A stretch of 64,000 nucleotides of DNA from positions 1 to 64,000 of the forward strand of contig NZ_JABEQK010000013.1 of NCBI RefSeq assembly GCF_014174275.1, in the 5' to 3' direction. The notes below the pieces were generated by a model, which saw only the letters and a program-made list of their open reading frames with translations, made no database searches and was not told the origin of the DNA. Below are positions 42,103 to 46,736 of this stretch, in pieces (position 1 is the stretch's first letter; the number at the start of each line of letters is the position of its first letter). The position numbers and the translations under genes were made by a program. Source of the DNA: Gluconacetobacter takamatsuzukensis (GTDB lineage Bacteria; Pseudomonadota; Alphaproteobacteria; Acetobacterales; Acetobacteraceae).

Positions 42103-42543
42103 TCAGATGCCGCCCTTGCGGCCGAAGAGCGTGCGGACGATGTGCATCAGCGCACGCAGGGCCTGGCGGCCGACCGGGCCGGCGATCGCGCCCGTGACCG
42201 CCGTGATGGCCATGGCCTGGCGCAGTTCGTTCAGCGCATGTTCGCGGGCGAAGCGGGCGCGGATTTCGGTGGCGGTCATGATCGAGCGGCGGCCGAGCAG
42301 CAGGAAGAGCAGCGCCATGACGGCGTCTACCGCGAAGACCAGGATGGCCGCGCCGAGCACGCTGAACCCCAGCGTCTGGTAGGCGAAGGCCCACAGCAGC
42401 GCGTGCCCCGACAGGATCGCCAGCAGGCCGAACACGCCGGCGACGACCAGGAACGCCACCTGCCTGCCTATGCGGATGGCCATCTCGCGGCGTACGGTCA
42501 GTTCCGCCTGGACAGTGGCTTTGCCAAGTTCGGCTATCTTCAT
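42103..42543 (-). CDS. Holin-X/YqjE-like membrane protein
   Basis: A 146-residue protein with two central membrane helices (VAFLVVAGVFGLLAILSG and LGAAILVFAVDAVMALLFLLLG) flanked by charged helices, the architecture of the phage-holin-superfamily-III/YqjE group of small envelope proteins. Function is not known. The ATG at 42543 begins MKIAELGKATVQAELTVRRE; the longer frame upstream is not credible. It lies 295 bases upstream of the FUSC operon on the same strand. Confidence 0.7.
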   Translation of the reverse strand: MKIAELGKATVQAELTVRREMAIRIGRQVAFLVVAGVFGLLAILSGHALLWAFAYQTLGFSVLGAAILVFAVDAVMALLFLLLGRRSIMTATEIRARFAREHALNELRQAMAITAVTGAIAGPVGRQALRALMHIVRTLFGRKGGI

Positions 42544-42894
42544 GGTCCTTGCTTCTTCCCTCTGCTTCGTTGGCGGGCGTTCCGCCGGAATGCCCGCCCG
42601 GCCAGATAGCTGATCGCGGCACGGGTGGCGATGGCCGCCGGTGGCGTCTGGCGCCCGGCAGCGTGGATCGGGCGCGATGATCGGCCAGTTTGCGCGCCTT
42701 GGCAACGAGGGTCGGCCTGCCGCCGGGAGGGCGGCCCCGGGTCCGCTTGGGTGCCGATGGCGGTGCGGGGCCGGTTGCCCGGAAGGGGGTTCTGGCGATT
42801 TTACGCGCTGGGACCGCAAGATTGGTCGTATCTTTCATGGGGGTTGTCTACACTCGACGGCTTTCGTTCCGTCCTGTCAGGTTTCGCTTCTCGC
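42544..42894. other. Divergent intergenic region, 351 bases
   Basis: No gene is visible. A hairpin GGCGGGCGTTCC/GGAATGCCCGCC lies at 42572-42598, in the expected leader of the minus-strand membrane-protein gene. The right half must contain the promoter of the ABC-like cassette; GGTTGTCTACACTCGACGGC near 42842 is the least GC-rich stretch, but no -10/-35 pair is convincing. Confidence 0.5.
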
Positions 42895-44010
42895 ATGGCT
42901 CCCCTCTCTCCACGTCTTGACGTTCGCGGATTTGTGTGTGCGCCGGTGGGGGCCTGCACGCCCGCGCTGTCCTTTTCGGTCGCGCCCGGCGGATGCCTGG
43001 CCCTGCTGGGGGACCGCGCGGCCGACCTGTCGGGCCTGATGGATACGCTGGCCGGCCATCTGCCGTGCGTGGCCGGGGAGATCCTGCTCGATGGGCGGGA
43101 CGTGTCCGGGCTGCCGGTGGGCGGGCGGGGGCTGGGGCTGTTCAGTGCGCGGGACCCGCTGTTCGCGCATCTGACGGTGCGGCGGAACCTGGCCTTTCCG
43201 CTGGAGGCGCGGGGCATGGCGCGCCCGGCGATCGCGGCGCGGGTGGATGCCGTCCTGGCCCTGCTGGGGCTGGATGGATGTGCCGGCCACCGCCCGCGCG
43301 CGCTTGCCCCGCAGGATGAATGGCGTGCGCGGCTTGGCCGGCTGCTGGTGTTTGCGCCGTCGGTCCTGCTGCTGGACGACCCGTTCGCGGGGCTGGAGCG
43401 CGGGGACCGGCTGGCGATGCGCCGCCTGCTGGCGCGCGTGAGCCGGGCGCAGGGGCTGACGTTGCTGCTGGCGACCGGGGACCGGGACGACGCGCTGCTG
43501 CTGGGGGAGACGATCGGCATCCTGTCCGGCCGCGCGCTGTTGCAGACCGGCAGTGCGGCCGAACTGTTCGACCGGCCGGCCTGCGACCGGGTGGCCACCG
43601 GGTTTGGCGATGCCAACGCGCTGACCGGTCGGGTCGCGTGGGTGGAGGACGACCTGGCCTCGGTCCATCTGGCCAGCGGTGCGCGGGTCGAGGCCATGGC
43701 GGGGGAGGGGCTGGGGGACGACATGCTGTGTACGCTGTGCGTCCGGCCCGACCGGATCGCCACCCTGTTTCCGACCGGACGGGCTGCCGCCGACGAGGAC
43801 GGGGAGGACACGCTGCCGGCAGTGCTGGCGGGGCTGCACCATATGGGTGACCATATCCGGCTGCGTTTTCGCCTGGAGGACGGGCAGGAGGTGCTGGTGC
43901 GCCGGCCGCCCGCGCAGAACCTGACCGGGCTTGTGCCCGGACGGACCGCGCGGCTGGCGTGGCAGCCGGCCCATGCGGTGGCCTTTCCGTTTCGCGGGGA
44001 AATGGGCTAG
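42895..44010 (+). CDS. Degenerate ABC transporter ATPase-like protein with TOBE-like C-terminus
   Basis: A 371-residue protein that aligns end to end with PotA/spermidine-type ABC ATPases, but every nucleotide motif is altered. The Walker A place (39-47) reads GDRAADLSG with no lysine; the Q-loop glutamine is Ser84; the signature (137-144) is LAPQDEWR instead of LSGGQ; Walker B is VLLLDDPFAGLE (Asp161-Asp162, no Glu); the H-loop histidine is Gly195 (LLATGDRDDA). The C-terminal part (VRPDRIATLFP; VLAGLHHMGDHIRLRFRLEDGQEV) retains a TOBE-like fold. The frame is intact over its whole length, arguing against a simple pseudogene. ATG 42895 begins the conserved part. The binding protein starts 1 base after the stop. 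Confidence 0.75.
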   Translation: MAPLSPRLDVRGFVCAPVGACTPALSFSVAPGGCLALLGDRAADLSGLMDTLAGHLPCVAGEILLDGRDVSGLPVGGRGLGLFSARDPLFAHLTVRRNLAFPLEARGMARPAIAARVDAVLALLGLDGCAGHRPRALAPQDEWRARLGRLLVFAPSVLLLDDPFAGLERGDRLAMRRLLARVSRAQGLTLLLATGDRDDALLLGETIGILSGRALLQTGSAAELFDRPACDRVATGFGDANALTGRVAWVEDDLASVHLASGARVEAMAGEGLGDDMLCTLCVRPDRIATLFPTGRAAADEDGEDTLPAVLAGLHHMGDHIRLRFRLEDGQEVLVRRPPAQNLTGLVPGRTARLAWQPAHAVAFPFRGEMG

Positions 44011-44011
44011 C

Positions 44012-45043
44012 GTGCCCGGCTCTTTGTCCTGCCTCCTGCGAAAGTCCATCCCCCTGTCCGGCTCGTTCCGCACCCTCCGATCGTTCCGTCGTCTTCTGAT
44101 CGGGCTGCTGCTGCTGGCGATCGTGTCGACCGGCGGGAATGCCCGGGCGGGCTGGCGCGCGCATGCGCTGGTGGTGAACAGCCTGGGCGGCGCGCTGGGC
44201 AGCGCCCAGGACAAGGCGTTCTTCCGCCCCTTCGCGGCGCAGAAGGGGTTCGGCATCCTGCGCTATGTCTGGGATGGCACGCCGCAGCCCCGGACCGCGC
44301 ATGGCACCGGCCATGCCTGGACCGTGGCACTGATGGAAGACAGCACCGTGCGCGCCGCCTGCATGCAGGGGACCCTGCTGCGCCTGGGGGGCGCCCCGGG
44401 CAGCGCGGATGCCTGCGGCGTGCCGGCGCTGCGCGAGGGGATTGCGCTGGCGTGGGATCGCGGGCGCATTCCCGTAGCCCCGCACTGGAGCGATTTCTGG
44501 AACGTCGTGCGCTATCCCGGCAAGCGTGGCCTGCGCAAGGACCCGCGCTCGACGCTGGAGATCGCGTTGATGGCCGATGGGGTGGCGCCGGCCGATGTCT
44601 ATGCCGTGCTGGGCACGCCCGAGGGGGTGGCCCGCGCGTTCCGCAAGCTCAGCCAGTTGCGTCCTTATATCGTGTGGTGGACCAGCCCGGCGGAATCCGC
44701 GCGCATCATCGGCAATGGCAGCGTGCTGATGACCAGCGCGGCAGGGGGCGAGGTGGCGGCGGCCGGGACCGGCCAGCGCGATGTCGGGCTGCAATGGGAG
44801 CAGAGCCTGGATGAGGGCCTGTCCTGGGGGGTTGCGCCCGACCTGGACCGGGCCGCGCTGGATCGCGCGCGTAGCCTGCTGCATTTCATGGCCCAGCCCG
44901 AGCAGGTGGCGCGGTTTGCCGGGCTCTATCACGCGCACCCCGACGGATCGGCCGCGCAGCCGCTGCCGATGGATGCGTCCTTCTGGCAGGAGCATCTGCC
45001 CGATCTGTCCAGGCGCTTCGCGGACTGGCTGGCCGCGCCATGA
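44012..45043 (+). CDS. PotD-like extracellular solute-binding protein
   Basis: A 343-residue exported protein of the spermidine/putrescine-binding class. A signal peptide (LLIGLLLLAIVSTGGNARA, cleavage near GW) follows a basic N-region. LVVNSLGGALGSAQDKAFFRPF, then WDRGRIPVAPHWSDFWNVVRYPGKRGLRKDPRSTLEIALMADG and KLSQLRPYIVWWTSPAE are the PotD-type core. The GTG at 44012 is 1 base after the ATPase-like gene; its stop overlaps the start of the small permease-like gene (ATGA). The ligand may be a polyamine or another small cation, but this is inference. Confidence 0.8.
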   Translation: MPGSLSCLLRKSIPLSGSFRTLRSFRRLLIGLLLLAIVSTGGNARAGWRAHALVVNSLGGALGSAQDKAFFRPFAAQKGFGILRYVWDGTPQPRTAHGTGHAWTVALMEDSTVRAACMQGTLLRLGGAPGSADACGVPALREGIALAWDRGRIPVAPHWSDFWNVVRYPGKRGLRKDPRSTLEIALMADGVAPADVYAVLGTPEGVARAFRKLSQLRPYIVWWTSPAESARIIGNGSVLMTSAAGGEVAAAGTGQRDVGLQWEQSLDEGLSWGVAPDLDRAALDRARSLLHFMAQPEQVARFAGLYHAHPDGSAAQPLPMDASFWQEHLPDLSRRFADWLAAP

Positions 45044-45486
45044 CCGGACTGCCGGCTTTTTCGGCGCCGGCGCTGGCGGTCAGTCTGCTGGTGGAAGGGG
45101 GGGCGGCCGTGGCCGCCTGCGGGTTCGGCCTGCTGCTGCGGGCGGGGCCGGTCGGGCGGCGTGCGCTGTCGGGCGCGCGGGTCTGTGCGCTGGCGCTTGC
45201 GTTGCCGGGATGGATGGGGGCCGTTGCATTGTCCGGCCCCTGGCGGGAGGATGGCGTGGAGCCGGTGGTGACGCAGGCTGTCTGCCTGGTGCCGCTGGTG
45301 CTGTTGCCGCTGCTGCGTGCGCTCGACCGGTTGCCGCCCGGACTGGCGCGGACGGCGGCGGGCCTGGGAGCGGGGCGGGCCGTGCGGGTGCGGGGCCTGT
45401 GGGTGCCGCTGCTGGGGCCGGCGGCGCTGGCCGCGGCGGGGCTGGCGCTGGCGGGGGCGGTGATGGTGGGCGTGCTGGACGCGTAG
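45040..45486 (+). CDS. Truncated ABC permease-like membrane protein
   Basis: A 148-residue protein with about four hydrophobic helices. The segment ALDRLPPGLARTAAGLGAGRAVRVRGLWVPLL is placed like the cytoplasmic EAA loop by which ABC permeases dock on their ATPase (EAAxxLGA-x-x-F-x-x-V-x-LP), but the protein is about half the usual 270-290 residues. ATGA overlap couples it to the binding-protein gene. As its ATPase-like partner also lacks catalytic motifs, the set may no longer be a transporter, or may need subunits encoded elsewhere. Confidence 0.65.
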   Translation: MTGLPAFSAPALAVSLLVEGGAAVAACGFGLLLRAGPVGRRALSGARVCALALALPGWMGAVALSGPWREDGVEPVVTQAVCLVPLVLLPLLRALDRLPPGLARTAAGLGAGRAVRVRGLWVPLLGPAALAAAGLALAGAVMVGVLDA

Positions 45487-45534: not shown

Positions 45535-46017
45535 ATGACCGATACAAAGCCGTTCTGGCAGGTCCGCCGTCTGGACGAAATGACGACCGAGGAATGGGAG
45601 TCGCTGTGCGATGGCTGCGGGCGCTGCTGCCTGCACAAGCTGCGCGAGGACGTGACCGAGCAGATCCTGTTTACCGATGTCGCCTGCCGGCTGCTGGACC
45701 TGGAAAGCTGCCTCTGTTCGGATTACGCGTGCCGCCGGCGCAAGGTGCCCGATTGCGTGCAGCTGACGCCCGAGGCGCTGGCGGAGATCGACTGGCTGCC
45801 GCCCTCCTGCGCCTATCGGCTGCTGGCCGAGGGGCGCGATCTGGCATGGTGGCATCCGCTGGTGTCCGGCTCGCCCGACACCGTGCACGAGGCCGGGATT
45901 TCGGTGCGCGGGCGGGCGATCAGCGAACGGCGCGCGGGCCAGCTGGAGCATCATATCGTCGACTGGCCGGGCAGGATGCCCCGGCCGCGTCGGCCACGGG
46001 CGCGCGACCGGGGATGA
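45535..46017 (+). CDS. YcgN family cysteine-cluster protein
   Basis: A 160-residue member of the YcgN/UPF0260 family. The cysteine cluster [12 protein letters not shown] (Cys25, 28, 31, 32), a second group [16 protein letters not shown] and [22 protein letters not shown] are diagnostic. The family is predicted to bind metal or Fe-S; its reaction is unknown. The stop overlaps the ATG of the metallopeptidase gene (ATGA), so the two are coupled. Confidence 0.9.
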
Positions 46018-46736
46018 TTGCCGGCCTGTCCGGGCCGGTTCCGGCGGAGGCCGAGACCGTGCGGCTGGCGGGGCGGGACGTGCCGGTGCGCTGGCGCCGG
46101 TCGGGCCGGGCGCGGCGGCTGTCGCTGCGGATCGATGCGCGGGCGGCCGAGATCGTGATTACCCTGCCGCCGCGGGCGGAGCGCGAGGCCGGGCTGGCAC
46201 TGCTGCGCAACCATGCCGTCTGGGTGCTGTCGCGGCTGGACCATCTGCCGGCGGCGGTGCCGTGGCACGATGGTGGGCAGGTGGTGCTGGATGGGTGCCC
46301 GCTTGGTATCGCCCATTGCCCCGATGGGCGGCGGGGAGTGTGGATCGAGGACGGGGTGGTGAAGGTGAGCGGTGAGGCGCCGTTCCTGCGCCGCCGGCTG
46401 GCGACCTTTCTGCGGCAGGAGGCCGGGCACCGGCTGGGGGCGCGGCTGGCGCAGATTGCCGGGCCGGCCGGGCTGCGGCCCCGCCGGCTGGTGATCAAGG
46501 ATACCAGCAGCCGCTGGGGCAGTTGCAGCGCGGACGGCACGGTGATGCTGAACTGGCGCCTGGTGATGGCGCCGGTGGACGTGCAGCATTATGTGGTCGC
46601 CCATGAACTGGCCCATCTGCGGCACATGAATCATGGTCCGGATTTCTGGGTGCTGGTGGCGCGCCTGACGCCGCACCGGCATATGGCCGAGGCGTGGCTG
46701 CGCCGGCATGGGCCGGCATTGCTGCGCGCCGCGTGA
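46014..46736 (+). CDS. YgjP-type M48-like metallopeptidase
   Basis: A 240-residue protein of the YgjP/DUF45 family. The zinc motif [19 protein letters not shown] (near residue 195) gives HExxH plus a third histidine; [21 protein letters not shown] upstream is the family signature. Family members are cytoplasmic zinc peptidases of poorly known role. The ATG overlaps the ycgN-like stop; a tRNA gene follows 63 bases after the stop. Confidence 0.88.

Follow-up and report, generated by a model that had tools for sequence, protein, structure and literature searches.

The three genes at positions 42895-45486 of Gluconacetobacter takamatsuzukensis contig NZ_JABEQK010000013.1 (analysed as a 64,000-nucleotide stretch, positions 1-64,000, referred to here as the window) encode an ATPase-like protein, a protein resembling a solute-binding protein (SBP) and a short permease-like protein, all related to parts of ATP-binding cassette (ABC) importers. 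On balance, comparison of the sequences favours an explanation in which this trio is an ancient, non-transport derivative of a type I importer of the gamma-aminobutyric acid (GABA)/polyamine/opine class, kept by purifying selection. Since the motor, the channel and the binding protein have each lost needed features and yet are widely retained, the cassette probably does something other than transport. Its genes are as follows.

42895-44010, + strand: ATPase-like gene, 371 aa; PotA/MalK-type nucleotide-binding domain (NBD) and TOBE_2 domain, no catalytic motif
44012-45043, + strand: SBP-like gene, 343 aa; GTG start; signal peptide apparent by eye; ancestral-type ligand site lost
45040-45486, + strand: short permease gene, 148 aa; four long helices predicted

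The SBP gene starts one base past the ATPase stop codon, and the SBP and permease genes overlap where the stop of the first meets the ATG of the second. Open reading frame (ORF) reading and Pfam bore out an earlier note on this DNA, which had described the three ORFs, their location, a 371-codon frame and a TOBE-like tail. The ATPase-like protein matches TOBE_2 (2e-13) and ABC_tran (2e-11), with NCBIfam models (PhnT, PotA and others) matching far under their cut-offs. SBP_bac_8 is matched by the SBP-like protein across residues 132-305 (1e-19), and sequence of the GABA/polyamine-class family is present overall; the short permease matches BPD_transp_1 at 0.0044, which is below the cut-off.

A widely retained ATPase without catalytic motifs

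The pseudo-ATPase frame is open in 14/14 Gluconacetobacter genomes at 70-91% identity. A search for orthologues, which the earlier note had proposed as a check, found the SBP and short permease genes adjoining it, with all three open, in each of these 14, and the trio across Acetobacteraceae. Sequencing error or a chance open frame was rejected, since the same motif-less protein is present in 14/14 genus genomes. In a collection of named genomes, those of Gluconacetobacter and Nguyenibacter fall in the 70-91% identity range, and further relatives occur in Komagataeibacter, Novacetimonas, Lichenicoccus, Brytella, Gluconobacter, Asaia, Swaminathania, Ameyamaea and Acidomonas. Among 397 Acetobacteraceae genomes, 80 carry a match to the ATPase profile of at least 352 bits (from matches listed down to 283 bits). 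Together with genomes G390 and G014, whose lower-scoring loci are motif-less as well, they span 18 of 102 genus codes; as the 20 loci fetched with scores from 330 down to 287 bits included two dead and two intermediate ATPases, this membership may be incomplete. The SBP and then the short permease follow the ATPase, in the same order, in 54 of the 55 motif-less loci fetched, the short permease being displaced 1.4 kb further on in one of them (L087), and the remaining locus is cut by a contig end. A class-wide search at E 1e-88 returned the window's own genome alone (1/289). In a search at the level of the taxonomic order, 129/299 genomes matched, all of them same-family or nearer; the 20 non-matching genomes shown are equally same-family or nearer, such that this search may not have left the family. 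A plasmid origin was rejected, as tblastn against 72,556 plasmids at E 1e-40 returned four records at 29-32% identity.

The motifs were compared between 55 motif-less members (from 53 of the 80 genomes, plus G390 and G014) and 17 canonical relatives. The window ATPase is without the Walker A Lys, the Q-loop Gln, the LSGGQ signature, the Walker B Glu and the H-loop His; these five losses, all named in the earlier note, are present in the sequence and common to the orthologues. None of the five elements is present in 52/55 members, one is kept in two members and two in one, and the S-G-G of the signature never occurs together in any of the 55. The Walker B Asp is still present in 40/55, compared with 17/17 canonical relatives. 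Among named-organism loci, many of which derive from the same genomes as the main set, the Walker A Lys is present in 0/45 that are readable, a 46th starting downstream of it. Judged by its motifs, the ATPase is catalytically dead. The relevant features of the ATPase gene are these.

43009-43035, + strand: former Walker A, residues 39-47 (GDRAADLSG); Lys in 0/55 versus 17/17 canonical
43144-43149, + strand: former Q-loop, residues 84-85 (SA); Gln in 2/55 versus 17/17 canonical
43150-43164, + strand: RDPLF, residues 86-90, just after the Q-loop; newly conserved residues
43306-43320, + strand: former LSGGQ signature, residues 138-142; S in 15, first G in 1 and second G in 2 of 55
43375-43380, + strand: former Walker B Asp-Glu, residues 161-162 (DD); Glu in 0/55 versus 17/17 canonical
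43477-43479, + strand: former H-loop His, residue 195, Gly in the window; His in 2/55 versus 17/17 canonical
43735-43986, + strand: TOBE_2 domain, residues 281-364; less variable than the NBD among pseudo-ATPases

In a tree of 54 ATPases (51 of 74 fetched loci and three outgroup ATPases, with the motif columns removed), the 37 dead ATPases form one clade (100/100) inside the canonical Acetobacteraceae ATPases. The pseudo branch is long, as are two outgroup rows, L002 and L092, and some canonical forks are weak. Just outside the dead clade stand L130 (97/95) and then L136 (90/63), both of which are intermediate in that the Walker A Lys is kept while the Q-loop Gln, the signature GG and the H-loop His are lost; L136 additionally retains the Walker B Glu. 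Intact motifs were found only in other genera, outside the clade. Lineage-specific decay was rejected because the motif losses are common to the clade across genera, and the loss is, on this tree, one ancient event that was followed by retention in 18 genus codes.

Selection was examined by the Nei-Gojobori method as the ratio of non-synonymous to synonymous substitution rates (dN/dS), in genes with a strong GC bias and with several dS values near saturation. Seven within-genus pairs give an ATPase dN/dS of 0.14-0.37, and six pairs from five other genus codes give 0.09-0.23. Values for the SBP are 0.21-0.36 (seven within-genus pairs) and 0.12-0.30 (three pairs, other genus codes), and for the short permease 0.21-0.36 (three pairs, other genus codes). 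The YcgN-like and YgjP-like genes that flank the cassette give 0.08-0.26 and 0.13-0.40, respectively, within the genus, some of the YgjP pairs containing a poorly defined N-terminus. Neither a dN/dS near 1 nor broken frames, as expected of pseudogenes, were found in the trio, genome G137 being the exception. The dN/dS check that the earlier note had also proposed thus indicates purifying selection on the ATPase (0.09-0.37), which opposes decay under relaxed selection, and that explanation was rejected. The note had suggested 'early decay caught in progress', to be expected if close relatives had intact motifs and selection was relaxed here; that idea was tested and is not supported, because one clade shares the motif losses and purifying selection followed them, and because intact motifs were found only in other genera.

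The distribution of constraint along the protein has shifted. Entropy was calculated for 43 pseudo-ATPases and 13 canonical sequences, sets of unequal divergence whose values are comparable within a set only. In the pseudo-ATPases the P-loop (2.52 bits), signature (2.29 bits) and H-loop (2.27 bits) are all above the NBD mean of 1.94 bits, whereas the TOBE-containing second half, at 1.63 bits, is less variable than the NBD. The canonical ATPases show the reverse pattern (NBD 0.77 bits, second half 1.22 bits). The stretch following the Q-loop, at which the coupling helix docks in known importers, has low entropy in both sets (1.23 bits in pseudo-ATPases, 0.50 in canonical ones). Here R86 and P88 are present in 81% and 93% of the 43 pseudo-ATPases and in 0/13 canonical sequences. 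Eighteen columns in all are at least 80% conserved in the former and less than 25% the same in the latter, including D50, R86, P88, G125, A185, R197, G204, A240, C282, F292 and P365. In keeping with this, Pfam detected TOBE_2 in 20/20 members searched and ABC_tran in 19/20. As far as sequence can tell, this conservation pattern is what is expected when a protein takes on a new job, not when a relic drifts freely, and may still accommodate a weak residual function. An AlphaFold model of the pseudo-ATPase (pLDDT 93.3, pTM 0.89) predicts a full NBD and TOBE fold, the best Protein Data Bank matches of which, by Foldseek, are PotA and MalK, aligned along almost all of the protein; both are also among the nearest solved relatives of the protein.

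The binding protein and the short permease

The closest solved relatives of the SBP are GABA/polyamine/opine binders (4i1d, Pf622 9d57/6dgv, Atu4243 4eq7, MotA 5l9g and the agropine binder 6hly), which give nearly whole-length profile matches (E 8e-54 to 3e-40). In the Pf622 sensor the GABA site comprises W9, T13, F100, Y102, W202, R205, D228 and Y264, according to the available part of PMC12999171. The corresponding positions were compared with near-duplicates and five loci (L127, L122, L205, L212 and L219) left out. In SBPs that are linked to permeases, W9, R205, D228 and Y264 are each present in 11/11, and position 102 is aromatic in 11/11. T13 and F100 are Tyr and Ile in these proteins and W202 is not kept (Y in eight, P in two and V in one of 11), so their ligand need not be GABA. 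Of the four retained residues nearly all have gone from the 40 trio SBPs (W9 in 3, R205 in 4, D228 and Y264 in 0), in which Glu replaces R205 in 27/40. The counts are similarly low in eight SBPs of permease-less operons (W9 0, R205 1, D228 0, Y264 2) and in 13 SBPs found without the other two genes (W9 0, R205 1, D228 0, Y264 0), the Y264 position falling in a gappy region of the alignment. The description of this protein as 'normal-looking' in the earlier note is therefore refuted, since the residues expected at the ligand site are gone. Five of the eight permease-less SBPs are beside ATPases read as intact and one is beside the intermediate L136 (the ATPase motifs beside the other two, L207 and L215, being unread), such that loss of the ancestral ligand site seems to have accompanied that of the permeases and to have come earlier than the death of the ATPase. 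Separately, several genera have a deletion in the N-terminal lobe of the SBP that removes the AQxxFFxPF stretch, for example in L090, L091, L140, L141 and L143.

The short permease is modelled (pLDDT 89.9) with helices at residues 9-34, 39-63, 74-82 plus 84-96, and 113-147, and with a coupling helix at 102-108. A profile of 44 short permeases aligns with residues 61-197 of PotC (8y5g_C; E 5e-11), which we take to mean that the protein is without the first and last helices and keeps about the TM2-TM5 core (transmembrane helices 2 to 5). Its best conserved part is the coupling loop:

45349-45414, + strand: EAA-like coupling loop, residues 104-125; least variable part of the short permease

The loop, in which RTAxGLGAGxxxRxRxLWLPLLGP is conserved, has an entropy of 1.30 bits versus 2.2-2.8 in the four helices, and the earlier account of a 148-residue permease-like protein with an EAA-like loop is thus upheld. 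A type I importer requires two full-core permease domains, and the cassette supplies a single protein of 148 aa; a second permease was absent from the cassette, to which the search was confined. That the operon consists of non-catalytic parts from a polyamine-class importer, as also suggested in the note, agrees with the relatives of all three proteins, namely GABA/polyamine/opine binders, PotA/MalK and PotC/PotB.

Flanking genes and related loci

Gene orders were taken from similarity searches, gene calling having misread several high-GC loci, the window included. Three flanking genes of the window are relevant.

45535-46017, + strand: CxxCxxCC (YcgN-like) gene, flanking and syntenic; compared with Pfam
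46014-46736, + strand: YgjP-like metallopeptidase gene, flanking and syntenic; start picked by hand; compared with Pfam
42106-42819, - strand: holin-like gene, upstream of the cassette

Linkage of the holin-like gene (upstream) and of the YcgN and YgjP genes (downstream) to the cassette locus persists across many genera, YcgN or YgjP being present at 29/31 trio loci (L083-L091, L129, L137 and L140-L159). Seven flank proteins were submitted to Pfam, of which two matched above the cut-off and four below it, and one was without a match.

The SBP also occurs without its neighbours. In 24 genomes of 1.9-3.1 Mb, hand-picked for the lack of a high-scoring pseudo-ATPase, it is present in 14, comprising G137 and 13 SBP-only genomes with no ATPase (sought genome-wide; best score in the 13, 169 bits) and no same-strand short permease within 1.5 kb, the distance to which that search extended; a weak opposite-strand match was obtained at L240 (E 0.029). 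These loci (L240-L248 and L250-L253) belong to genus codes g14, g33, g41, g61, g70, g100 and g101, and in 9/13 the SBP is still followed by the YcgN and YgjP genes. Their SBPs have dN/dS of 0.17-0.25 in five of six pairs, one at dS 2.8, the sixth pair being saturated. In the SBP tree, L244 and L245 sit without firm placement next to canonical rows that lack permeases, and the trio may never have been present there.

Relatives of the cassette with live or intermediate ATPases are frequently linked to mla genes: mlaE, mlaF or mlaD comes after 8/19 canonical or intermediate loci, some of the loci being cut by contig ends, and Pfam confirms MlaE and MlaD. At L138 and the Elioraea loci L206 and L223, the order is ATPase-SBP-permease-permease followed by mla genes. 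These canonical operons encode a related ATPase and SBP, canonical ATPases being 32-38% identical to that of the window, and differ from the trio in having intact motifs (the Elioraea loci standing outside the motif table), two full permeases and the four ligand-site residues. Elsewhere a PotA-type ATPase is directly upstream of mlaE-mlaF-mlaD with no permease between them, either with an SBP (L120-L122, L207, L215, and likewise L136, where MlaE and MlaF were seen) or with none detected (L131 and L132). Two further permease-less canonical loci, L128 and L134, adjoin a divergent holin-like gene (30.5 and 20.2 bits to that of the window), and L128 also adjoins a DUF883-like gene with relatives at L088 and L073 (25.8 and 16.1 bits), Pfam support for both gene types being under the cut-off. 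From these shared neighbours, L128 and L134 look like the same locus before the death of its ATPase. Metagenome-assembled genomes titled 'Asaia bogorensis' (L212, on the contig of L121, with L205, L213 and L214) carry a canonical-group ATPase and not the pseudo-ATPase of Asaia (from motifs in L121, L139 and L205), so the bins look misnamed.

Proposed role and competing explanations

The lack of motor motifs, the presence of about half a channel and the loss of an ancestral-type ligand site indicate that the cassette is not a pump, whereas conservation of the coupling loop and the post-Q-loop stretch, of the TOBE domain and of the SBP core leads us to propose a scaffold or relay. We give about an even chance to the more specific idea that the dead ATPase, on a four-helix permease stub, scaffolds or relays signals at the membrane on behalf of a periplasmic protein which has stopped binding the ancestral solute and is able to act alone. 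The binding site, the permease pair and the ATPase motifs would have been lost successively, either as the acetic acid bacteria radiated or earlier. A dimer of the short permease may then hold a dimer of pseudo-NBDs by way of the coupling loop, so that the TOBE domains lie beneath the membrane and offer a platform for docking, while the exported SBP-like protein would work in the periplasm and, in genomes with the trio, touch the short permease. Such a complex would not pump but would serve as a static scaffold or a conformational relay; its separable core function would lie with the SBP-like protein, and the membrane part would be an adaptor lost from some small genomes. Comparison gives the parts and the conservation of each; the membrane-anchored assembly and the relay we infer from them.

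Several observations weigh against this proposal. The short permease evolves fastest of the three (dN/dS 0.29-0.64 within the genus), is weakly recognisable in L084 (34 bits) and L089 (23 bits), and has as its Foldseek top matches PotB/PotC with a probability of 1.00 but an E of 0.04-0.05. No short permease was detected at E 0.01 in the permease-less relatives whose ATPases are live. The SBP-only proteins stand in three places of the SBP tree, which suggests that the membrane part is dispensable or absent there and weakens any history in which all three genes always act together; the SBP itself is also absent from 10 of the 24 hand-picked genomes. Finally, in G137 (L249) the trio is breaking down, the ATPase and the SBP each being split into two ORFs with the short permease still recognisable.

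The same loosely constrained permease, the SBP-only genomes and the broken ORFs of G137 could instead point to a slow relic, an importer dismantled stepwise (permeases and ligand site, then the ATPase, then all but the SBP) and left with a weak residual function, and the order of losses does resemble dismantling. We regard this as unlikely, given the ATPase dN/dS of 0.09-0.37, the frames open in all 14 genus genomes, a single loss followed by retention in 18 genus codes and the conserved residues that canonical ATPases are without. A ligand sensor is comparably improbable. In the maltose system MalK acts with its regulators, which provides a model for TOBE signalling, and an SBP with a changed ligand might signal its occupancy via the short permease to the TOBE domains. 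The coupling loop and the TOBE half are indeed the constrained parts, the SBP is under purifying selection, and SBPs acting with sensor kinases are discussed for Pseudomonas in the available part of PMC11113362. Against this, the known ligand residues are lost, which disfavours a simple polyamine sensor, the N-terminal lobe is partly missing in several genera, and SBP-only genomes have no relay beside the SBP.

A somewhat smaller chance is given to an accessory role in envelope lipid transport, whereby MlaEFD phospholipid transport took on a PotA-type ATPase together with an SBP, and the trio, now apart from the mla genes, has kept a role in the envelope. The mla genes downstream of 8/19 canonical or intermediate loci, some without a permease or a detected SBP, are consistent with it. 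Conversely, the three MlaE genes of the window genome are all on other contigs, and no part of the trio is present in their checked flanks (about 7 kb either side for two and 1.5 kb for the third). An ordinary importer, in which ATP is still bound or hydrolysed or an ATPase and permease from elsewhere complete the transporter, is very improbable despite the Walker B Asp that survives in 40/55 and the exchangeable ATPases described for type I importers in the available part of PMC7658222, since Lys, Gln, SGG, Glu and His are all absent in 52/55, the P-loop is more variable than the NBD average, the permease is without about its first and last helices and the ligand residues of the SBP are lost.

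PotB and PotC of the spermidine importer PotABCD have six helices each. The cassette resembles the Escherichia coli PotABCD structures (8y5f, 8zx1) in its ATPase fold with TOBE domain (Foldseek E 2.5e-32, TM 0.84) and in the alignment of its short permease profile with PotC, but has no catalytic motif and one four-helix permease instead of two permeases, and its SBP is nearer to GABA/opine binders than to PotD. In heterodimeric ABC exporters with a degenerate nucleotide site, one site stays active. Such exporters (TM287/288 and TAP; PMC7756269, PMC13351893 and PMC4242082, in the parts available) likewise conserve an NBD minus catalytic residues, whereas the cassette ATPase has lost all elements and has no partner ATPase in the cassette. 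A full-text literature search, with most subscription journals outside its scope, gave no publication recognisable as dealing with this cassette or with any conserved importer that is wholly dead, and returned no account of an importer whose motor, channel and binding protein are all degenerate and yet kept across a bacterial group; the available part of a Gluconobacter oxydans screen paper (PMC12041372) makes no mention of polyamine, spermidine, putrescine or extracellular solute-binding.

Among kinases and other folds, it is well known that dead copies of an enzyme can remain in use. Here, relatives preserve live, part-degenerate and dead stages, from which the succession of repurposing steps can be worked out, and industrially used species in which the trio genes can be deleted are found among the acetic acid bacteria. 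Annotation of these genes as parts of a polyamine or ABC transporter is probably wrong.

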